A DNA stretch of 64,000 bases. Source: Luteibacter rhizovicinus DSM 16549. Lineage in GTDB: Bacteria > Pseudomonadota > Gammaproteobacteria > Xanthomonadales > Rhodanobacteraceae. The stretch spans positions 62,001-126,000 of the forward strand of contig NZ_CP017480.1 in the NCBI RefSeq assembly GCF_001887595.1, read 5' to 3'. A program made the translations under genes and the position numbers. Of this stretch, positions 25,561 through 62,253 are shown in pieces (position 1 is the first letter of the stretch; each line of letters opens with the position of its first letter). The notes beneath the pieces are model-generated. The model was not told the DNA's origin and did no database searches. It was given only the letters and a program-made list of their open reading frames with translations.

Positions 25561-26760
<1,200 letters not shown>

Positions 26761-37020: not shown

Positions 37021-38085
37021 ATGAACGCCCACTACGACCTGGCCGTCAATCTCCCCCTGCGCGCGGCGGTGGCGGCGCGGCTGGCCGAAGCCCTGGCCGC
37101 CTTCCCGGTCGGTCCCGAACTGCTGGCCTACCCGGCGATGGAAGGCAACCTGGGCACGCGCGAAGCGATCGCCGGCTGGATGCGGCGACGCTGTGGCCAT
37201 GTCGTTGTCGACCCCCGCCGCCTGGTCGTGACCCTCGGCGCACGACATGCGCTGTCGCTGGCGCTGGACGAGGCCTGCGCGCCCGGCGACACGCTTCTCG
37301 TGGCATCGTCGACTTACCACGGTTTTCGTACCAGCGCAGAAGCGCGCGGCATCCGCGTCGCCGGCGTGCGCATGGATGGCGAGGGCATGTTGCCTGGCGA
37401 ACTGGAGCGCATGGCCGCGACGACCGGCGCCCGTTGTGTGTATGTGCAGCCGACGCTGCAGAACCCGACCACGTCGACGATGTCGTTGGCTCGTCGTCGG
37501 CAGATCGCGGCGGTGGCGACGGCGCGCGACCTGACCATCATCGAAGGCGATGTCTACTCACCGCTGGCATGGCAGCACGGCGATGCGCTTCCCCCGCTCG
37601 CCGAACTCGCCCCGGACCGCTGCCTGCACGCGGGCGGCATCGGCAAGGTGCTGGGGCCAGGACTGCGCGTGGGCTGGTTGCTCCTTCCCGACGACGCGAG
37701 CCGGCAGCGCGCGGCCTCGACGATACGACTCACCAGCGACGGCTTGCCCGCCCTGTTCCCCGCCATCGTGGCCGGATGGATGGCCGATGGCCTCGCGGAC
37801 GCGTTGCTGGCAAATCTCGCCGAGCGCATGGTCGAACGCAACCATCTCGCCCGTCACCTCCTCGGCGGCGATCTGGTGACCGCGAACGGCCTGCATGTCT
37901 GGCTGCCGGGCGACGGCGCGGAAGGTCTGGAGGCCAGAGCCATGGCACGCGGGGTGCGCCTCACGCCATCGACACCACTCGCGGCCGATGGCGAGCACGC
38001 CGAAGGCCTGCGGCTATGCCTCGGTGCGGAAGAAGACCTCGACCGACTGGAAACCGCCTTGCGTATCGTCGCCGAGGTTCGCTGA
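37021..38085 (+). CDS. PLP-dependent fold-type I aminotransferase-like protein (MocR-type domain without HTH)
   Basis: 354 aa. PLP contacts: Asp177/Tyr179 in EGDVYSPL and the Schiff-base Lys209 in GGIGKVLGPGLRVGW. The opening resembles the linker and aminotransferase part of MocR/GntR regulators, but the winged-helix DNA-binding domain is missing. It may be a true aminotransferase or a truncated regulator turned enzyme. A TACAAT hexamer just before the ATG suggests a leaderless mRNA. Substrate unknown. Confidence 0.82.
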   Translation: MNAHYDLAVNLPLRAAVAARLAEALAAFPVGPELLAYPAMEGNLGTREAIAGWMRRRCGHVVVDPRRLVVTLGARHALSLALDEACAPGDTLLVASSTYHGFRTSAEARGIRVAGVRMDGEGMLPGELERMAATTGARCVYVQPTLQNPTTSTMSLARRRQIAAVATARDLTIIEGDVYSPLAWQHGDALPPLAELAPDRCLHAGGIGKVLGPGLRVGWLLLPDDASRQRAASTIRLTSDGLPALFPAIVAGWMADGLADALLANLAERMVERNHLARHLLGGDLVTANGLHVWLPGDGAEGLEARAMARGVRLTPSTPLAADGEHAEGLRLCLGAEEDLDRLETALRIVAEVR

Positions 38086-38087
38086 GA

Positions 38088-38903
38088 CTAGGCCTTCGTG
38101 GCCGTCAGCTTTTCGAGGGCCTTACCGACCGCAGCGAAAGCGAACGCACCCGTGACATGCGTGGCTGCGCCGAGGCCGCCACCGCAGTCGAGCTTCAAGG
38201 CATCGCTGCCCGGTGGCCGTACGCCGCACACACTCCCGTCGGCCTGCGGGTACTGCACGTTCTGCATCGAATACACCGCCGAGACGCCGAAGAAACGATC
38301 GGGGTTACGCGGGAAGCCATGCTCCTGACGAAGCTTCTTCCGGATCATGCTGAGCATGGCGTCGTGTTCGGTACGCGACAGATCGCGGACGCGGATCAAG
38401 GTCGGATCGGTGCGACCACCCGCGGCGCCCACGGTGACCAGGGGCACCTTGCGGCGACGACACCAGACCACGGTTTCCAGCTTGACCTTGAGCGCATCGC
38501 AGGCGTCGATCACCACGTCGTAGTTGCGGTCGAGCAGCTCGTCCAGGGAGGACGGTGTCAGGAAACGCTCCATCGCCTCGAGCCGCAGGGTCGGGCTGAT
38601 CGCATGTGCCCGCTCGGCAACGACACCGACCTTGGGCTTGCCGTACTGGCCATCCAGGGCATGCATCTGCCGGTTGGTATTGGACAGGCAGACATCGTCG
38701 CCATCGATCAGGGTGAGCCTGCCGATGCCGCTGCGCGCCAGCGCTTCGGCGGCCCACGAGCCAACGCCACCCACGCCGATGACGCACACGTGCGCGTGAG
38801 CGAGGCGATCCAGGGTGCCGCGGCCATAGAGCCGCTCGATGCCGGCGAAACGTTCGGCCTGGGCCGTACTCACGGGGATCTCGGTGTGGGGTATGACGCT
38901 CAT
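38088..38903 (-). CDS. tcdA: tRNA threonylcarbamoyladenosine dehydratase
   Basis: Cyclises t6A37 of tRNA to ct6A in an ATP-dependent reaction. 271 aa E1-like protein: IERLYGRGTLDRLAHAHVCVIGVGGVGSWA (nucleotide-binding Rossmann), LTLIDGDDVCLSNTNRQ, and an Arg/Lys-rich segment. It runs convergently with the upstream aminotransferase gene (three bases apart) and divergently from the cytochrome-kinase operon. Confidence 0.92.
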   Translation of the reverse strand: MSVIPHTEIPVSTAQAERFAGIERLYGRGTLDRLAHAHVCVIGVGGVGSWAAEALARSGIGRLTLIDGDDVCLSNTNRQMHALDGQYGKPKVGVVAERAHAISPTLRLEAMERFLTPSSLDELLDRNYDVVIDACDALKVKLETVVWCRRRKVPLVTVGAAGGRTDPTLIRVRDLSRTEHDAMLSMIRKKLRQEHGFPRNPDRFFGVSAVYSMQNVQYPQADGSVCGVRPPGSDALKLDCGGGLGAATHVTGAFAFAAVGKALEKLTATKA

Positions 38904-38912
38904 TGTCTCATA

Positions 38913-38940
38913 TTGAAAGAATGGGACCGTCCGCTATGCT
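38913..38940 (+). promoter_or_regulatory. Sigma70-like promoter of the cytochrome c'-kinase-regulator operon
   Basis: TTGAAA (38913-38918) and TATGCT (38935-38940) are separated by 16 bases, a good sigma70 match. Predicted start of transcription is near 38947, giving a leader of about 20 bases to the ATG at 38968. This is the clearest promoter in the window, and it drives the quorum-sensing sensor operon. Confidence 0.65.
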
Positions 38941-38967
38941 GACAGTCCGGAAAGCCATGGATCACCG

Positions 38968-39357
38968 ATGCGCGCGTTGCTTCTCGTCATCCTGGGGCTG
39001 GCCGTAGGCGCCATGGGCGCCACGTCCGCTCTGTCGGCACTTCGCCAGGGCACGCCGTTCCATGATGGCGTCATGGCCGTGATGCAACACCACATGGGCG
39101 TACTGCAGGCCAACGTGCGGGCGAAGCAGTGCGATGCCAAGGGCAGCGCCAGCCATCTGGCCCGCCTGCGCGAGACCGCTGGCGACATTCGCGAGGCCTT
39201 CCCGGACATGGAGCCGGCGTTCGCCCAGGCCGACGACGGGCTGCTGAAGGCGCTCGACCGGGCCGTCGCCGCCACGCCGGGCACCTGCGAGGCACTCGCC
39301 GTCGCCTTGAAACCGGTTGGCGATGCCTGCCAGTCCTGTCACCAGCGATTCCGCTGA
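38968..39357 (+). CDS. Cytochrome c'-like (class II) heme protein
   Basis: 129 aa with an N-terminal signal or anchor helix (LLLVILGLAVGAMGATSAL). The only heme c motif is at the extreme C-terminus, CQSCHQRFR (Cys121, Cys124, His125), the hallmark of cytochrome c'/c-556 four-helix proteins. A candidate distal ligand region is AVMQHHMGVLQ (Met38/Met43). Such proteins bind NO or CO, or carry electrons in the periplasm. The stop is one base before the kinase ATG, so it is first gene of the sensor operon, an unusual partner for a quorum-sensing kinase. Confidence 0.85.
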   Translation: MRALLLVILGLAVGAMGATSALSALRQGTPFHDGVMAVMQHHMGVLQANVRAKQCDAKGSASHLARLRETAGDIREAFPDMEPAFAQADDGLLKALDRAVAATPGTCEALAVALKPVGDACQSCHQRFR

Positions 39358-39358
39358 G

Positions 39359-40729
39359 ATGACCGGATCCGCACCCGAAAGACCGACCGGCTTCCTGCGC
39401 ATGCAGTGGTGGCTGCTTGCGCGGGCCATGGCGCGCTTCGAAACCACGATGTTCCTGCGCACCCGTTACTCGCAGCCGAAGATGGTCGCGATCGGCGTGG
39501 TCGGCAGCTTCTGCCTCGCCGTCTATTATCCGGTGTGGGCCTACCTGTTTCCGCAGCCCTACGAAAACCTGCCGATGCGGCTGGTCTGCAGCGCGACCTT
39601 CATCCCGCTGGCCCTCCTGCCCTGGTGGCCGCGCCGTTTGCGCACGCACCTGCCAACGTACTGGTACTTCGCCATGACGGTGGCGATGCCCTTCTTCGTC
39701 GGTTACATGACCCTGCGCAACGCCACGCCGGCCTGGCTGATGACCCACCTGGCCTGCGTGATGCTGCTGATGATGCTCTTCGACATCGTCAGCTTTCTCC
39801 TGGTTTTCAGCATCGGCAGCCTGCTGGCCGGCATGGTTTTCGTGCTCTCGCCCGAGGCGCACCTGCATACACAGACGATGCTCGAGTACCTGCCCCTGCT
39901 GCTGTTCGGCATGGTCGGCGGTGCCACGTGCACGGTGTCATCGACGATGGCCGAGCAATCGCGCATCGAAGCGCTGACCGCCGCCTCGAACAATATCGCC
40001 CACGAATTGCGCACGCCGCTCGGGTCGCTACGCATCGCGGCCCGTGCCGTCGCCCGTTTCATGCCCGATCTGATCCGCAGCCATCGCCTTGCCGAAGGTG
40101 GAGGACTGCCCGTGCCGGAACTACGCGCGCAGAACCTGCACGCGCTGGAGCGCAGCATCGGCGTCATGGAACGCGAGGTCACCTACGCCAACACCATCAT
40201 CGACATGCTGCTCCTCTCGGCCCGGCCGATCGGTGAGGTACCGCTGATCCCCCTCACCGCCCGCGAGTGCGTGGAACAGGCGCTGCGGCGCTTTCCGTAC
40301 GGATCCCGCGCCGAGCGCGAACGGATCACCCTGTCGCCGACCGGCGATTTCCGCCTCCTCGGCGAGGAGAGCCTGGTCGTGCACGTTCTGTTCAATTTGC
40401 TGCGCAATGCACTTTTTCATACCGATCGGGCCGGCAAGGGCGATATCGGTGTATTCATCGAGCCGGGGGATCGGGCCAGCCGCATCCGTGTCTACGACAC
40501 CGGTCCAGGCATCCCGCCGGACGTCGTTCCCCGCATTTTCAACCGCTTCTACTCCTATTCCAGCGACAGCCCGGGCACCGGATCGATCACCGGGCTAGGA
40601 ATAGGTCTCGCTTTTTGCCGCGCGGCGATGGAGCATATGGGAGGTGGCATCGTCTGCCGAACGAATCTGGGTGAATTTACTGAATTCACCCTAACCTTTC
40701 CGCATGCGGAGACCGGGGACCGGCAGTGA
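39359..40729 (+). CDS. Membrane histidine kinase, CqsS/LqsS-like
   Basis: 456 aa sensor kinase. Residues about 42-195 contain six hydrophobic helices with almost no periplasmic loop, as in CqsS and LqsS, which sense alpha-hydroxyketones within the membrane. The DHp phospho-acceptor is His215 in NNIAHELRTPLGSLR. The ATPase domain shows N-box NLLRNALFH, G1 DTGPGIP and G2 GLGIGLAFC. No receiver domain follows, unlike V. cholerae CqsS and like LqsS. The stop overlaps the regulator ATG (TGATG). Family assignment rests on topology plus the neighbouring synthase, not on database comparison. Confidence 0.85.
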   Translation: MTGSAPERPTGFLRMQWWLLARAMARFETTMFLRTRYSQPKMVAIGVVGSFCLAVYYPVWAYLFPQPYENLPMRLVCSATFIPLALLPWWPRRLRTHLPTYWYFAMTVAMPFFVGYMTLRNATPAWLMTHLACVMLLMMLFDIVSFLLVFSIGSLLAGMVFVLSPEAHLHTQTMLEYLPLLLFGMVGGATCTVSSTMAEQSRIEALTAASNNIAHELRTPLGSLRIAARAVARFMPDLIRSHRLAEGGGLPVPELRAQNLHALERSIGVMEREVTYANTIIDMLLLSARPIGEVPLIPLTARECVEQALRRFPYGSRAERERITLSPTGDFRLLGEESLVVHVLFNLLRNALFHTDRAGKGDIGVFIEPGDRASRIRVYDTGPGIPPDVVPRIFNRFYSYSSDSPGTGSITGLGIGLAFCRAAMEHMGGGIVCRTNLGEFTEFTLTFPHAETGDRQ

Positions 40730-41766
40730 TGACGTTGAACTCGCAGGGCGATATCCAGCCCTTCCACTTTCCAACGACGACGTTCCTCGTGGACGACCAC
40801 GAGGAGTATCTCGACGTCGTGCCGCTCCTGCTCGACCCGATGGTCCGCGTGCGTACCTTCAGTTCGCCGCGTAGCGCGTTGGCCACCCTGGGGAATAACG
40901 GCAGTCGCCCGGTCCCTGGCGGCGGCTGGCTGTACCGCTGGAAGGACCGCCCCTCCGAAACGCAGGAACTCGTGGCGCTCGATATCGACTCGATCCATCG
41001 GGTGGTCTACGACCCGGAGCGCTTCGCCGAGATTTCCGTGGTGGTGGTCGACCAGGCCATGCCCGAGATGGACGGCATCACCTTTTGCAAGCGCTTGCCG
41101 AATCCGCATATAGGCAAGATCCTGCTGACGGGCCGCGCGGACGACGCCACGGCCATCGATGCCTTCAACTCGGGCGTCATCGACCGCTTCATCCGCAAGA
41201 ACGACCCGCTGGCCATCGAAAAGCTGCAGACGGCCATCACCGAGCTGCAGCGTCGTTACTTCGAGCGGGCCAGCGCCTTCGTCGCCGAAACCCTGGCATT
41301 GGGCAATTTCCGCTTCCTGCGCGACCCGGCGTTTCGCGAAGTCCTGCAGAGCGTCACGGCCACGTTCCAGCCGGTGGAGTGCTACGTGCACTGCAATCCC
41401 ACGGGGCTTCTGCTGATCGACGCCTGGGGTATCGGCCGTTTCCTCCTCGTCCAGACGGATGAGGACCTGCGTACCCACTATGAAATTGCGGCAGATCTCG
41501 GGGCCCCCCAGACCGTGCTCGACGCCCTCCGCGGCGGCGAGGCCCTGCCCTGGTTCCGCTCCCGCGACGGCTTCTACCACAAGGGCGTGGAGAATCCGGA
41601 AGCCCACATGTATCCCGCCACCGCGGTGTCCGGCGAACAGTGGTACTACTACGCGCTTATCGACGACGTGGAGCGCTTCCGGCTGCAACACATCAAGTCG
41701 TACCGGAGCTGGCTGCGCGAGCAGGACCTCAGCCTCTCGGCCGACAGCAGGCCGCGCTTCATCTAA
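40729..41766 (+). CDS. LqsR-like response regulator without DNA-binding domain
   Basis: 345 aa. The receiver domain opens TTFLVDDHEEYLDVVP (acidic pocket Asp22/Asp23) and has an unusually long insertion between strands 2 and 3. The phospho-acceptor is Asp108 in VVVVDQAMPEMDG, then LLTGRADD and FIRKNDP (Thr and Lys switch residues). I recall the Legionella LqsR acceptor as also being Asp108. The C-terminal half (about 200 aa) is not a helix-turn-helix, GGDEF or HD domain that I recognise. Translationally coupled to the kinase, hence its cognate regulator. Confidence 0.82.
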   Translation: MTLNSQGDIQPFHFPTTTFLVDDHEEYLDVVPLLLDPMVRVRTFSSPRSALATLGNNGSRPVPGGGWLYRWKDRPSETQELVALDIDSIHRVVYDPERFAEISVVVVDQAMPEMDGITFCKRLPNPHIGKILLTGRADDATAIDAFNSGVIDRFIRKNDPLAIEKLQTAITELQRRYFERASAFVAETLALGNFRFLRDPAFREVLQSVTATFQPVECYVHCNPTGLLLIDAWGIGRFLLVQTDEDLRTHYEIAADLGAPQTVLDALRGGEALPWFRSRDGFYHKGVENPEAHMYPATAVSGEQWYYYALIDDVERFRLQHIKSYRSWLREQDLSLSADSRPRFI

Positions 41767-41784
41767 TCGGGCTCATTTCTCAAT

Positions 41785-41831
41785 AAAAGGACGCTTTCGT
41801 GCCGGATCATCCGGTGCGTCGGGCGTCTTTT
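41785..41831 (+). terminator. Candidate terminator after the regulator gene
   Basis: AAAAGGACGC and GCGTCTTTT pair with one bulged G, enclosing an inner palindrome CCGGATCATCCGG, and the 3' arm ends in TTTTGT. It starts 18 bases after the regulator stop and would separate the sensor operon from the synthase gene. It could also act as an attenuator in the 275-base leader of the synthase. Confidence 0.55.
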
Positions 41832-42041
41832 GTCGTGCGTGGTCGCGCGGTCGTTCCGACGCGCGGATGTCACGACGTCTCTCTTGGTAATGGCACGAGG
41901 CCGGAGTCCGTTCGCGGACCCCGTAGGACGCCTCTCTCATCTTCATGCGTCTGCCTGGGCGAGGTGGACGTGCGTGCGCCGTTTTTTGTCGACGGCGTCG
42001 TGGATATCGCCCATCCCCCTTTGCCAGAGAGAGAGATCGTC

Positions 42042-43304
42042 ATGGAAAACGTTTCCGTCCTGCACCGCATCGCCCCGGCCCCGACGCTTCCGGCATTCGT
42101 TCAACGCAGGGTCGACAAATTTCACAACGAACGGGTTGCCATTGACTGGGGCGGCCGTCACATTTTGCGCGGCCGGCAGCCGACGGATGCCGACCTGATG
42201 CTGCAGAGCAACGACTATCTGGCCATTGCCGGGCATCCGGCCATCGTGGAAGCACAACGCGAAGCGCTGGCCAGCGGCGGCCTGGGCATGATGATGTCCG
42301 CGCTGTTCCAGCAACATGCCGACGATCCGCTGCATCGCGTCGAAGCGGAACTCGCACGCGCTGTCGGCAGCGAGGACGGCATCCTCGCGCAGTCGGGATT
42401 TGCCGCCAACGTGGGACTGATCCAGTCGATCGCGGGCGAGCGCGTGCCCGTCTACGTCGACATGCTCGCCCACGCCTCGTTGTGGGAAGGCATCCGCAGC
42501 GCGGGCGCGCGAGCCGTATCCGTCCTGCATAACGACATGACTCACCTCGAACGCCAGGTGATGCGGAACGGCCCCGGTGTCATCGTCGTCGATGCCGTGT
42601 ACAGCACCAACGGCAGCGTAGCCCCCCTGGTCGAGATCGCACAGGTTGCCCATGACCACGGTTGCGTCCTGGTCGTCGACGAGTCGCATTCGCTGGGTAC
42701 ACACGGTGTTCGAGGCGAAGGCCTGGTGGCCAGCCTCGGACTCAATCACCGCGTCCACTTCATCACCGCAAGCCTGGCCAAGGCCTATTGCTCGCGCGCA
42801 GGCTTTATCGCCTGCACCACGGCATTCAAGGACTATTTCGGCTGCGAGGCACTCCCGGCGATCTTCAGCTCGTCGCTGCTTCCGCACGAGCTGGCCGGCC
42901 TGTCGGCCTCGCATCGGGTCATCCAGTCCGAAGGCTGGCGACGCCAGCGACTACGCCAGGTCACGCGCCGCGTGCGCAGCGAGTTGACCGAGCTGGGCTA
43001 CCCCATCGCCGATGGCACGGAGCAGATCGTGGCCTTCGAAGCCGGCGTGGAGATCCTGACCGGTCGTGTGCGCGATGTCATGGAACGTCATGGCGTGTTC
43101 GGCTCGGTATTCAGCGCGCCCGCGACGACGGTCAACCGTTCGCTGCTGCGCCTGACCCTCAATGCAGGCATGAGCGACGACGACGTGGAGCGCTTGATCG
43201 AGGTGTGCCGCGTGGCACGTGACGCCATGGATCTACCGTCGTGGAGTGCGACGCGCCGGTCCACGCGGGAGGCTGCCCGATCGCCGTCGGCGGAAGTGGC
43301 CTGA
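42042..43304 (+). CDS. cqsA: CqsA/LqsA-like alpha-hydroxyketone autoinducer synthase
   Basis: 420 aa PLP enzyme of the alpha-oxoamine synthase family. Motifs: LQSNDYLAIAGHPA, DESHSLGTHG (Asp213, His216 for PLP) and Schiff-base Lys247 in ITASLAKAYCSRAG. The SLAKAxxxRAG form is, to my knowledge, that of CqsA-type quorum-sensing synthases rather than KBL (TLGKALGGA in the window's own kbl) or BioF. CqsA-type enzymes join an acyl-CoA to SAM or an amino acid to give CAI-1/LAI-1-like signals. ATG 42042 is preceded by AGAGAGAG; an 81-codon in-frame extension is implausible. The sensor kinase and regulator precede it. Confidence 0.85.
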   Translation: MENVSVLHRIAPAPTLPAFVQRRVDKFHNERVAIDWGGRHILRGRQPTDADLMLQSNDYLAIAGHPAIVEAQREALASGGLGMMMSALFQQHADDPLHRVEAELARAVGSEDGILAQSGFAANVGLIQSIAGERVPVYVDMLAHASLWEGIRSAGARAVSVLHNDMTHLERQVMRNGPGVIVVDAVYSTNGSVAPLVEIAQVAHDHGCVLVVDESHSLGTHGVRGEGLVASLGLNHRVHFITASLAKAYCSRAGFIACTTAFKDYFGCEALPAIFSSSLLPHELAGLSASHRVIQSEGWRRQRLRQVTRRVRSELTELGYPIADGTEQIVAFEAGVEILTGRVRDVMERHGVFGSVFSAPATTVNRSLLRLTLNAGMSDDDVERLIEVCRVARDAMDLPSWSATRRSTREAARSPSAEVA

Positions 43305-43310
43305 GTCCGG

Positions 43311-43357
43311 GCGTGGACGCGTCCGCGCGCCGTCAGCGCAAGGAAACGCGTCCACGC
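43311..43357. terminator. Perfect 12-bp inverted repeat between cqsA and the Mpo1-like gene
   Basis: GCGTGGACGCGT (43311-43322) and ACGCGTCCACGC (43346-43357) pair perfectly across a 23-base loop between two convergent genes; the second arm covers the last codons of the minus-strand gene. A bidirectional terminator role is likely, though no U-run follows. Confidence 0.5.
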
Positions 43358-43650
43358 AGGATGTCCCAGAACATCGCCCAGTCACCCATCAGGCTGTAAA
43401 GCGGATGCTTGAAGGTGGCCGGGCGATTCTTCTCGAAGACGAAGTGCCCGACCCATGCGAAGCCGTAGCCGCCGACCAGCGCCAGCCACAACCAGCGTAG
43501 CTGGCCGGTGGCGACGAGCATCGCCAGCGCCGCGAGCACCACCCAGCTACCCGCGAAATGCAGGCGCCGGCAGCGCACGTCGGCGTGCTCGCCCAGGTAA
43601 TAGGGATAGAAGTCGCGAAAGCTGGCAAAGCGTGCCATCACGGGCTCCAT
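43333..43650 (-). CDS. Mpo1-like (DUF962) membrane protein
   Basis: 105 aa with two hydrophobic helices and the DUF962 pattern FYPYYLGEHADVRCRRLHFAGSW, YGFAWVGHFVFEKNRPATF, conserving the histidines that bind iron in yeast Mpo1, a dioxygenase that shortens 2-hydroxy fatty acids. Start either ATG 43650 or 43638 (MARFASF). It converges on the cqsA-like gene and lies next to the pirin gene, whose stop follows its start directly. Confidence 0.85.
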   Translation of the reverse strand: MEPVMARFASFRDFYPYYLGEHADVRCRRLHFAGSWVVLAALAMLVATGQLRWLWLALVGGYGFAWVGHFVFEKNRPATFKHPLYSLMGDWAMFWDILRGRVSLR

Positions 43651-44520
43651 TCAATAGGTGGGCAGGGGAATCCGCTCGTACGCATCGCCGGGAACGATCG
43701 GAAATCGACCTTCCGACCATGCCACCTTGGCCGCATCGATCCGCTCCTGCGAACTCGCGACGAAATTCCACCACAGATGGCGCTCGCCATCGAGTGGCGC
43801 GCCACCGAACAGCATGATCAGTGACGGCTTGCGAGCCGTGAGCACGGGAGGCTCGCCGCCGTAGGCCACGCCCATGTCGAGCGCGCCCAGTTCGAGGTCG
43901 CCAAAGTGCGCGGCGCCATCGACCACGTACGCGCCCCACTCCGCATGCTGCTCCGGCATGGTCAGCGTCGCCCCGGCCTCCAGGCGCGCTTCCACGAAGA
44001 ACATGGGCGCATAGACGTGCACTGGCGAGGTGACACCGAAGGCGTCGCCGGCAATGACGACGAGGCTGGCGCCATCGCGATTCACCTTGGGCAGGGTGGC
44101 GGCACCGTGGTGATGGAATTCGGGGTCGATGTCCTCGTGCGTCCTGGGCAAGGCCACCCAGACCTGGATGCCATGCAGGTTCTGCCCATGATGGCGCTCG
44201 TCCGGCGGCGTGCGTTCGGAATGCACGATGCCCTTCCCCGCCGTCATCCAGTTCACGTCGCCGGGATGGATGTCGACCGCACTACCGAGGCTGTCGCGGT
44301 GCCGGATCGCGCCGGCGAACAGCCAGGTGACCGTCGCCAGCCCGATATGCGGATGCGGACGCACATCCATGCCGGTGTCTTCGCCAAAGGTGGCCGGCCC
44401 CATCTGGTCGAAGAAGACGAAGGGCCCGACGTGCCGGGCCTTCACGTGCGGCAACATGCGCCGCACGACGAAGCCGCCGCCGAGATCGCGCTGCTTGCCG
44501 TCGATGGGGACCGTGGTCAT
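43651..44520 (-). CDS. Pirin family protein
   Basis: 289 aa bicupin. The N-terminal cupin has RPHPHIGLATVTW and GDVNWMTAGKGIVHSE, which supply the three His and one Glu iron ligands of pirins. C-terminal cupin EWGAYVVDGAAHF. Bacterial pirins include quercetin 2,3-dioxygenases and regulators of pyruvate metabolism; role here is undetermined. Confidence 0.92.
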   Translation of the reverse strand: MTTVPIDGKQRDLGGGFVVRRMLPHVKARHVGPFVFFDQMGPATFGEDTGMDVRPHPHIGLATVTWLFAGAIRHRDSLGSAVDIHPGDVNWMTAGKGIVHSERTPPDERHHGQNLHGIQVWVALPRTHEDIDPEFHHHGAATLPKVNRDGASLVVIAGDAFGVTSPVHVYAPMFFVEARLEAGATLTMPEQHAEWGAYVVDGAAHFGDLELGALDMGVAYGGEPPVLTARKPSLIMLFGGAPLDGERHLWWNFVASSQERIDAAKVAWSEGRFPIVPGDAYERIPLPTY

Positions 44521-44569
44521 GGGCTACTTCTCCGCGTGTCGTTGGGTTCAAGCGTAGCCGATGCGTGTC

Positions 44570-45448
44570 CTAGACGACCTGCATCCACTCGACAAGGCGA
44601 CGTGCGATCTCCTGCGGCACCTTCATCCACGCGAAGTGGTCGGCCGGTACGCCCGCGAGATCGTCGGGACCGATGACGTCGGTGCGTTGCGAAGCCTCGG
44701 GCATCTTGCCGAGAAGGAAGGCCAGCGATGCCTCGGGACCGAACCAGTCGTCCCGCAGGCGCTGGGCGAAGACCGGCGCGCGCTGCCCGCGCAGCGCTGC
44801 TTCGAGATCGGCGTCGATGCCCCGCCCGGCGTACCGCCCGGTGCGCCCCGTGCGTGACCAGTCACCAATCACACCCCGAGCCTCGTTGCCACCGAAACCC
44901 ACGCGGCGCCCGGGCAGCCATCCCACGAGGTTGGCGAGCACGGGCGCAGCGACGAGGGCCAGACCTACCCACGGCTTGAAACACCGCCAGTACGGTGAGC
45001 CACTCCCGACGAGCGCCAGGCCAGCCAGCGGCACTGAACTGGTCGCGGCAAGCAGGCTGGCCAGCTGGCCGCCCAGACTGTGTCCGCCCACATAGAGTGG
45101 TACCGACGGGACGGCATCGCGCAGGGCGCCGAGGCTGGTCGGCAGGTCGTCGGTGAGGAGCTCGCGGTAGCCCCAGTTGGCATGGCGGCCGGCCCGGCGA
45201 TCGCTGGACCCGATACCCCGCCATTCATGCACGGCCACGGCAACGCCACCCGCGGCGAGCGCGAGAGCAAGGGGTTCGTAATGACGGGCAGCCACGCCGA
45301 GTGCAGGGACCCAGAGCAAGGCGGCGACCTCGTCCCCATCGGGACGGTAGAGGACCAGATCGGCGGAGGCGCCGTCGGCCATATGCAGCGAAATCGCCTC
45401 GCGTGGGGCGGATTCCGGGAAAATCGTGGGTTCAGGGCGATCGGTCAT
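44570..45448 (-). CDS. Alpha/beta-hydrolase
   Basis: 292 aa single-domain hydrolase. Nucleophile elbow GGHSLGGQ carries the catalytic Ser; the oxyanion region is VPALGVAARHYE and the catalytic His is likely in PADHFAWM. Middle helices (WVGLALVAAPVLANLVGW) form a hydrophobic cap. Substrate unknown; it looks like esterase/monoglyceride lipase relatives. Divided from the next gene by a strong hairpin. Confidence 0.85.
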   Translation of the reverse strand: MTDRPEPTIFPESAPREAISLHMADGASADLVLYRPDGDEVAALLWVPALGVAARHYEPLALALAAGGVAVAVHEWRGIGSSDRRAGRHANWGYRELLTDDLPTSLGALRDAVPSVPLYVGGHSLGGQLASLLAATSSVPLAGLALVGSGSPYWRCFKPWVGLALVAAPVLANLVGWLPGRRVGFGGNEARGVIGDWSRTGRTGRYAGRGIDADLEAALRGQRAPVFAQRLRDDWFGPEASLAFLLGKMPEASQRTDVIGPDDLAGVPADHFAWMKVPQEIARRLVEWMQVV

Positions 45449-60972: not shown

Positions 60973-62253
60973 ATGACCGGTTTCGAAGCGACGCGCGGTT
61001 GGGCCCAGTCCCAGGATGCGGCCGATCCCCTGCGCGCGTTCCGCGACGAATTCCACATCCCACCGCATCACGGGCGGGAGACCCTCTACTTCTGTGGCAA
61101 TTCGCTCGGCCTGCAGCCCAAGGGCGTCCGTGCCGCCGTCGAGGCGGAACTGGCCGACTGGTCGGAGCTCGCCGTCGAAGCGCACTTCCGCGGTCGCTCG
61201 CCATGGATGCATTACCACGAGTATGTGCGCGACACGATGGCCGACGTGGTCGGCGCGCAACCGCACGAAGTGGTCGCCATGAATACGCTCGGGGTGAACC
61301 TGCACCTGATGATGGTCAGCTTCTATCGCCCGACGGTCGAGCGCCCGGCCATCCTCATGGAAGCCGGTGCGTTTCCCACCGATCGCTATGCCCTGGAATC
61401 GCAGGTGCGGTTTCATGGCTTCGATCCGGCTACCGACCTGATCGAGATCCAGCCCGATGGCCCCGGCGGCACGCTGTCGATGGCGGCGATCGAGCAGGCC
61501 ATCGCGGAGCACGGCCATCGGGTGGCCCTCGTCGTCTTGCCCGGCGTGCAGTACCGCACCGGGCAGGTCTTCGACCTGGCGGCCATCGTGCGGCTGGCAC
61601 GCGCGCAAGGCTGCCTCGTAGGCTTCGACCTCGCCCATGCCGTCGGCAACCTGCCGCTGGCACTGCATGACAGCGGCGCGGATTTCGCGGTGTGGTGCAC
61701 GTACAAATATCTCAATGCCGGTCCCGGCGCCGTCGCCGGCTGCTTCGTGCACGAACGCCACGCAACCGCCGATGTGCCGCGTTTCGCCGGCTGGTGGGGA
61801 CACGACAAGTCCACGCGTTTCCAGATGGGACCGCAATTCGTTCCTACGCCCGGAGCAGACGGCTGGCAGCTGTCGAACCCGCCGATTCTCGCGCTTGCGC
61901 CCTTGCGGGCCTCGCTGGATGTCTTCACGCGTGCCGGCATGCCCAACCTCGTGGCGAAGAGCCGTCGCCTCACTTCGTACCTCGACTGGCTCATTCGTAG
62001 CCGCCTCGACGATACGCTCGACATCGTCACGCCGAACGATCCGCAGCAGCGGGGCGCGCAGCTTTCCGTGCGCGTGCGTGCCGGTCGCGATGCGGGTCGT
62101 GCCTTGTTCGGTTACCTCGAGCAGCAGGGCATTATTGGCGACTGGCGCGAGCCCGATGTGATTCGTCTTTCGCCGACGCCGCTTTACAACCGGTTCGCCG
62201 ATTGCCTCGGCGCTGTGGAAGCGATCGAAGCGTGGCGCGGGACGCAGGCATGA
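60973..62253 (+). CDS. kynU: Kynureninase
   Basis: PLP hydrolase that converts kynurenine or 3-hydroxykynurenine to (hydroxy)anthranilate and alanine. 426 aa: FCGNSLGLQPKGV, PLP site in GFDLAHAVGNLPL, and the Schiff-base Lys in WCTYKYLNAGPGAVAG. Together with ACMSD this supports a kynurenine route to acetyl-CoA. The stop overlaps the ATG of the next gene by four bases. Confidence 0.95.
   Translation: MTGFEATRGWAQSQDAADPLRAFRDEFHIPPHHGRETLYFCGNSLGLQPKGVRAAVEAELADWSELAVEAHFRGRSPWMHYHEYVRDTMADVVGAQPHEVVAMNTLGVNLHLMMVSFYRPTVERPAILMEAGAFPTDRYALESQVRFHGFDPATDLIEIQPDGPGGTLSMAAIEQAIAEHGHRVALVVLPGVQYRTGQVFDLAAIVRLARAQGCLVGFDLAHAVGNLPLALHDSGADFAVWCTYKYLNAGPGAVAGCFVHERHATADVPRFAGWWGHDKSTRFQMGPQFVPTPGADGWQLSNPPILALAPLRASLDVFTRAGMPNLVAKSRRLTSYLDWLIRSRLDDTLDIVTPNDPQQRGAQLSVRVRAGRDAGRALFGYLEQQGIIGDWREPDVIRLSPTPLYNRFADCLGAVEAIEAWRGTQA

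Follow-up and report, generated by a model that had tools for sequence, protein, structure and literature searches.

A probable Lqs-type alpha-hydroxyketone quorum-sensing locus in Luteibacter rhizovicinus and its relatives among the Rhodanobacteraceae

Signalling by alpha-hydroxyketones is listed for Legionellaceae, Vibrionaceae, Burkholderiaceae, Chlorobiaceae and Oxalobacteraceae in the available part of a review (PMC5289986). The same excerpt gives the gene order lqsA-lqsR-hdeD-lqsS for Legionella, and the locus tags of Janthinobacterium sp. HH01 indicate the order jqsA, jqsS, jqsR (PMC3566124, in the portion accessible to us). The genetic evidence for JqsA presented there comprises a violacein phenotype and complementation by cqsA and lqsA. 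In the present study we describe a locus of three genes, encoding a sensor kinase, a response regulator and a pyridoxal phosphate (PLP)-dependent synthase, within a window of 64,000 nucleotides (positions 62,001 to 126,000 of NZ_CP017480.1) of Luteibacter rhizovicinus DSM 16549, whose chromosome of 4.77 Mb consists of one contig (genome G000 of our set). All three genes are intact and have the same orientation (+ strand). Very probably they constitute a complete alpha-hydroxyketone quorum-sensing circuit of the Lqs type that has been inherited within the family Rhodanobacteraceae.

The genes belong to a known kind, since automatic annotation already names them in Luteibacter. Among the best 120 of 3444 matches, synthases of Luteibacter, Tahibacter, Oleiagrimonas and others are called 'alpha-hydroxyketone-type quorum-sensing autoinducer synthase' or 'CAI-1 autoinducer synthase' by NCBI and JGI, and JGI names relatives of the Luteibacter kinase CAI-1 sensor CqsS. 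No published description of alpha-hydroxyketone signalling in Rhodanobacteraceae was found in a literature search without most subscription journals; in the excerpt of PMC12950752, a quorum-sensing context, Luteibacter appears as a community member only.

The synthase, regulator and kinase genes

The synthase gene (42042-43304, + strand) encodes a CqsA/LqsA-type protein of 420 amino acids. With the NCBI equivalog model for alpha-hydroxyketone synthases, NF005526, it reaches 537.6 bits against a cut-off of 428 (E=1.5e-161), whereas the next-best model, bioF, stays at 234 bits, below its cut-off of 426; the glycine C-acetyltransferase (KBL) and serine palmitoyltransferase (SPT) models match well below their cut-offs, too. 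The closest solved structures are those of V. cholerae CqsA (3hqt, E=2e-104; 45% identity). The SLAKAxxxRAG lysine motif, taken as CqsA-type in an earlier note on this DNA, is present as SLAKAYCSRAG, and its PLP lysine, Lys247, aligns with Lys236 of V. cholerae CqsA. Of the nine acyl-pocket residues listed in the part of PMC3285556 available to us, six are identical to those of CqsA.

In a maximum-likelihood tree of 50 rows, the synthase groups with CqsA, with the Vibrio and Cupriavidus sequences and with a Legionella-type LqsA, and a 100/100 branch separates this group from all ten outgroup rows. Thus, in the comparison suggested earlier with CqsA, LqsA, KBL, BioF and SPT, it falls with CqsA/LqsA and not with BioF/KBL. 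Nine of the outgroup rows were scanned, and their best NCBIfam match is KBL, 5-aminolevulinate synthase (ALAS), SPT or BioF, in some cases below cut-off; the tenth is L024. Four outgroup rows originate from the Luteibacter genome itself, which therefore has separate KBL, ALAS, SPT and BioF enzymes. One of these rows is a glycine C-acetyltransferase (KBL, over cut-off) located in the window at about 25624-26712 (+ strand).

Alignment with 14 relatives places the synthase start at ATG 42042; this codon and a purine-rich AGAGAG-type site are kept in Luteibacter, with insertions and deletions upstream. GTG 41799, where the longest open reading frame begins, was rejected as start on the basis of the same alignment. 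The nearest named relative found is the synthase of Luteibacter sp. dw_328 (96% identical). Three further close relatives (P0216, P0241, P0271) are labelled Bacillus, Paenarthrobacter and Microbacterium, names that likely stem from mislabelled or mixed assemblies.

The regulator gene (40729-41766, + strand) encodes an LqsR-type protein. PDB entry 6sy9, the response regulator LqsR of L. pneumophila, matches over residues 9-334 (E=4e-50, about 34% identity) and is the only one of seven PDB relatives by sequence that does so over the length of the protein. The AlphaFold model (predicted local distance difference test score 88.7) has 6sy9 as its first match as well (E=1e-27; template-modelling score 0.74 by query and 0.82 by target), and the next of the 50 fold matches shown follows at E=1e-8. 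With ATG 40729 as start, the phospho-acceptor is Asp108, which aligns with the receiver aspartate of 6sy9; D22, D23, D108, T134 and K157 are invariant in 40 aligned sequences. A Pfam scan at E<=0.001 revealed Response_reg alone and no known DNA-binding domain, the C-terminal part being an LqsR-type output domain. The receiver protein without DNA-binding domain described in the earlier note is therefore recovered, and by sequence and predicted fold it groups with LqsR and not with an unrelated two-component family.

The LqsS/CqsS-type kinase gene (39359-40729, + strand) overlaps the regulator start with its stop codon (TGATG). Its product has 456 amino acids and His215 as H-box histidine if translated from ATG 39359; the start codon is not certain, with ATG 39401 as alternative. 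Pfam detects HATPase_c (6e-21) and, below its cut-off, HisKA (5e-5), but no receiver domain, and the usual catalytic boxes follow His215. The helices predicted in the structure model (39-63 with a break, 71-85, 92-121, 124-140, 143-163 and from 171) are compatible with six membrane spans joined by short loops, in agreement with the six-helix kinase with almost no periplasmic loops proposed before. In a plain hydropathy scan, the segments 41-65, 71-89, 122-169 and 173-198 passed the cut-off, but 92-121 was missed. The ligand-domain motif YYPVWAYLFPQPYENLPMR closely resembles the corresponding stretch of V. campbellii CqsS, with which the kinase has further positions in common, and is recognisable in Legionella-type LqsS, Cupriavidus and others; this common motif speaks against a grouping of the kinase with an unrelated two-component family. 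At the position that determines tail length in Vibrio CqsS, Cys170 in V. cholerae and Phe175 in V. harveyi (PMC3285556, accessible part), the Luteibacter kinase has Cys191, numbered from the start chosen by our script. Phe is found there in both Tahibacter-group rows shown, Ser in the row of genus g18 and Ala in the rows of genera g7 and g12. A second, LqsT-like kinase was not detected in the Luteibacter genome at E<=1e-6.

Distribution, gene order and receiver-only relatives

NF005526 scores above cut-off in 23/23 Luteibacter genomes. Within the family, 35 of 233 Rhodanobacteraceae genomes carry the synthase at E<=1e-100 (34 of them exceed the cut-off, and the remaining match is a fragment at the edge of a contig), namely the 23 of Luteibacter and 12 in four other genera; Tahibacter, Mizugakiibacter, Oleiagrimonas and Pinirhizobacter are among the genera outside Luteibacter. 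In wider sets it occurs in 28/398 genomes of the order, all of them Rhodanobacteraceae, in 8/369 of the class and in 16/398 of the phylum. Matches to the kinase sensor (E<=1e-6) and to the regulator (E<=1e-25) coincide completely, both being present in the same 49 of 233 Rhodanobacteraceae genomes. Ratios of non-synonymous to synonymous substitution rates (dN/dS) are at most 0.29 for all three genes in the pairs measured.

Kinase, regulator and synthase genes are adjacent and follow each other in this order on one strand in 44 of 45 Rhodanobacteraceae loci, the Luteibacter locus itself included; many of these loci represent the same genomes twice, and in many the kinase end alone lies inside the stretch that was read. 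The exception (L051, genome G225, a Tahibacter) has no kinase there and a broken regulator. In G225 the regulator is split between two contigs (L091, L235), and because the split lies away from the contig ends, it seems to have been broken by insertion or rearrangement. The three genes occur together in five genera, which in combination with the E-value of NF005526 puts the gene set far beyond chance. Outside the family, 23 loci were read. A kinase is present in 19 of them, facing the synthase in 13 and diverging from it in two; in three it lies on the same strand behind the synthase, and one locus (G403) has the order kinase-regulator-synthase. Hence, this order does differ from the Vibrio and Legionella loci, as had been stated, but it is common to the family loci and is shared by G403.

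The locus of Luteibacter and its relatives has the order tcdA, cytochrome c', the three-gene cassette and Mpo1-like, mostly followed by pirin and hydrolase genes. In Luteibacter DSM 16549 the cytochrome c'-like gene (38968-39357) has its stop one base from the kinase ATG. Mpo1-like proteins are of the 2-hydroxy-fatty-acid dioxygenase family, and this gene had been considered as a possible signal-degrading partner. Both neighbours were rejected as parts of the system: they look like background, because they are directly adjacent in seven of 14 loci of relatives without cassette (L145, L147, L148, L149, L150, L153, L154). The remaining seven have no Mpo1-like match there, and three of these no cytochrome c' either. 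Directly after the synthase of the Tahibacter and Mizugakiibacter loci no Mpo1-like gene was found. Accordingly, the earlier span from 38913 holds for the three-gene set, whereas the cytochrome c'-like gene included in it belongs to the chromosomal background. Further upstream in the window (37021-38085, + strand) we observed a 354-residue aminotransferase-like protein that matches the EhuR model from position 127 onwards; it resembles MocR-type regulators in their C-terminal part but lacks the N-terminal one.

No synthase match at 1e-100 was obtained in 14 of the 49 genomes with a kinase-regulator pair. In ten of them (six of genus g12, four of g7) the pair occupies the same site, flanked by cytochrome c' and Mpo1-like; in the single g7 gap that was read, an M28 peptidase gene follows the regulator. 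In a tree of kinase and regulator, nine g7/g12 rows form one branch (100/100) nested among synthase-bearing rows, with long outgroup branches. The simplest reading of this tree, though no proof, would be one synthase loss in the g7/g12 ancestor. In a tcdA tree, used as species proxy, g7 and g12 group with six cassette-free genera and genus g19 is split, which additionally requires several losses or a degree of transfer of the pair. Ratios of dN/dS in nine synthase-less pairs range from 0.10 to 0.27 for the kinase and from 0.03 to 0.13 for the regulator, which indicates that the pair is still under selection. We read the ten same-site genomes as apparent receiver-only descendants under purifying selection, previously undescribed as far as the literature search goes. 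Such sister genera could serve as a same-site natural experiment on eavesdropping.

The other four synthase-less genomes (G081, G082, G110, G155) carry a divergent pair with 36-37% regulator identity in another setting. Divergent pairs of this sort (L229, L230, L231, L232) were observed in genera g6, g10 and g22. They adjoin an SNF2-type helicase in the two cases checked, are also found beside small proteins of unknown role, and possibly lie on a mobile element.

Second, divergent synthases were detected in two Luteibacter genomes (G007:C3:373021-374184, L088; G016:C5:20815-21984, L089) with 54% and 48% identity, respectively. Neither has a kinase or regulator match within the 16 kb read. A divergent neighbour of 291 amino acids at L088 ends in a methylglyoxal-synthase-like domain. 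A search for LuxI/LuxR-type acyl-homoserine lactone genes in the Luteibacter genome gave no match, but the LuxI search matched in no control genome, which leaves their absence unproven.

A structured leader upstream of the synthase

Regulator and synthase genes are separated by a leader of 275 bases (41767-42041, + strand), of which a model built from Luteibacter leaders covers 41916-42044. It contains the 5' strand of a helix (41927-41942), predicted to form 14 pairs with the ribosome-binding region at 42026-42041, and a conserved hairpin (41947-41971) with the core GGCGAGG, invariant in 20/20 aligned Luteibacter leaders. Upstream of the synthase the model matches in 23/23 Luteibacter genomes at E<=4e-12, most of them being part of its training set. 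The next match in these genomes has E=1.3e-3, with 150 first-look candidates out of several thousand scored per genome, and on this basis the leader was rejected as an element of a wider regulon. Other genera are matched weakly at best (L023, E=0.008; L238, 0.035). No Rfam family exceeds its gathering score in 38000-44600.

For the 20 Luteibacter leaders, RNAalifold supports the hairpin around GGCGAGG, with both-side changes at four of nine pairs, and does not give the ribosome-site helix. For ten leaders of other genera, it predicts four pairs between a CU-rich stretch and the GAGAGG ribosome-binding site, enclosing hairpins; both-side changes occur at 10 of 23 pairs, none of them among the four at the ribosome site. 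Single folds were computed for 22 leaders (27 without the near-duplicates L009, L016, L090 and L236 and the out-of-family L106). The ribosome-binding site is paired with far-upstream bases at a mean probability of at least 0.50 in 17 of these and of 0.48 or less in five (L015, L018, L019, L022, L087). The overall mean of about 0.59 compares with 0.22-0.43 for seven other gene sets from the same loci. With shuffled upstream sequences, 8/22 leaders reached p<=0.05 against 5/131 controls, the other 14 leaders lying above this value, and duplex energies are no stronger than those of some control genes.

On average, pairing of the 5' piece is stronger with the cognate ribosome-binding site than with those of other species. 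In a swap test uncorrected for relatedness, and with the 5' piece of L017 cut at a wrong place but kept in the counts, permutations as good as the real assignment numbered 1 of 20000 for 31 leaders, 95 for the 20 Luteibacter leaders and 4 for the 11 others; the own partner ranks first for 3/20 and 3/11, respectively. In Luteibacter DSM 16549, positions 42026-42036 have a predicted pairing of 0.95 at 37 C, which falls to 0.81 if 36 coding bases are added. A simple RNA thermometer was rejected, as the predicted ribosome-site pairing hardly changes from 15 to 42 C. The folding results suggest that the leader is a probable translational control element, previously undescribed to the extent of our literature search. 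If working, it would allow the signal-making enzyme to be controlled post-transcriptionally. The accessible part of PMC5338858 reports binding of CsrA to the Legionella lqsR messenger, such control being given for lqsR and not for lqsA; CsrA is thus one ordinary candidate for the trigger.

Proposed circuit and comparison with known systems

In the circuit that we infer, the PLP synthase would join an acyl-CoA and an S-adenosylmethionine-derived unit to a CAI-1/LAI-1-like ketone, as CqsA does, and the ketone would be bound within the membrane helices of the kinase, as in CqsS. By analogy to LqsS/LqsR (PMC5289986, available part), the kinase would autophosphorylate at His215 when little ketone is present and exchange phosphate with Asp108 of the regulator, and the ketone would switch the kinase off. 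The regulator would reach its targets through the LqsR-type output domain rather than a known DNA-binding domain. The apparently complete Cqs/Lqs-type system that had been proposed is in line with the synthase equivalog and tree, the LqsR-like regulator, the CqsS-like kinase motif and the clustering of the genes.

Several observations weigh against this picture. Three of the nine tail-pocket residues of the synthase differ from CqsA (V32L, F257C and C346S, with Leu, Cys and Ser in Luteibacter), and the signal may therefore be a ketone other than CAI-1 or LAI-1. Between the kinase sensor and that of V. campbellii CqsS, identity reaches only 29% in the matched region. The best 50 of 649 fold matches of the kinase model are mostly cytoplasmic kinase parts and include no CqsS structure, which leaves the sensor fold without structural confirmation. 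Moreover, the function of the circuit is predicted from its genes. Finally, since 14 genomes keep the kinase-regulator pair without a synthase, the pair may have a role beyond self-signalling.

From the last point follows a reading in which the circuit mainly listens: the selected unit would be the pair, reading the ketones of neighbours, and the synthase would be optional. The same-site position of ten synthase-less pairs, their nesting in the kinase-regulator tree and the low dN/dS in the nine pairs measured fit this view, which we regard as possible but doubtful. In Luteibacter, however, the synthase is kept in all 23 genomes with a dN/dS of 0.06-0.15 in five pairs, making self-signalling likely there, and the g7/g12 sensors have changed residues (Ala at the position of Cys191) and might read something else. 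It is very unlikely that the pair responds to some unrelated cue from the membrane or from metabolism, such as redox via cytochrome c'. Although this gene lies just upstream of the kinase and beside the pair in most family loci read, its adjacency to Mpo1-like in half of the 14 cassette-free loci is background-like, its distance from the kinase is variable, and at L087 no such gene was found next to the pair. Hardly credible, in our view, is that an ordinary BioF-, KBL- or SPT-like enzyme happens to lie beside an unrelated two-component pair. The synthase does share the PLP fold family with these enzymes, whose models match it below cut-off, and the two second-copy Luteibacter synthases lack linkage to kinase and regulator; but it scores 538 bits with NF005526 against 234 with bioF, clusters with CqsA and LqsA in the tree, is linked to kinase and regulator in nearly all family loci, and coexists with the genome's own KBL, BioF, SPT and ALAS.

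The complete, inherited Lqs-type circuit hence appears as the preferred reading. If correct, alpha-hydroxyketone signalling would be brought to a further family, kept throughout the Luteibacter genomes, and the output of LqsR-type regulators could be studied in Luteibacter. A more far-reaching and rather improbable idea is that of a split social trait: Luteibacter would speak and listen, two sister genera would have lost the synthase and kept the same-site ear, and the leader hiding the ribosome-binding site would be opened either by the LqsR-type regulator or by some other binder that depends on phosphorylation or on a signal. If true, the LqsR output domain would gain an RNA target and the loop would close without a transcription factor.

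Compared with the Vibrio CqsA/CqsS system (PMC3285556, PMC3376566, both in their accessible parts), Luteibacter shares a synthase 45% identical to that of V. cholerae and the common sensor motif. The kinases in the seven Vibrio rows read have 681-700 amino acids, whereas Luteibacter has one of 456 amino acids and a separate regulator; moreover, at the Vibrio loci read the kinase gene points towards that of the synthase, and an LqsR-like gene was not found there. The extra length of the Vibrio kinases presumably represents a fused receiver. With Jqs of Janthinobacterium sp. HH01, compared by its description in the available part of PMC3566124, the locus has in common three clustered genes of the same kinds, in another order. 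Unlike JqsA, which is supported genetically, the Luteibacter circuit is known here from its genes. Closest is the Lqs system of Legionella, which likewise has a separate kinase and a separate LqsR-type regulator with the receiver Asp108 (PMC5289986, excerpt); a Legionella-type LqsA falls in the same clade as the Luteibacter synthase. Differences to Legionella are the order kinase-regulator-synthase, with no hdeD-like gene between and one kinase, and a regulator about 34% identical to 6sy9, compared with 80% for the regulator of a genome with Legionella-type LqsA. The long hybrid kinase and the lack of an lqsR-like gene that mark Vibrio Cqs loci are thus not seen in Luteibacter, whereas the clustering of lqsA, lqsS and lqsR homologues that marks an Lqs-type locus is present.

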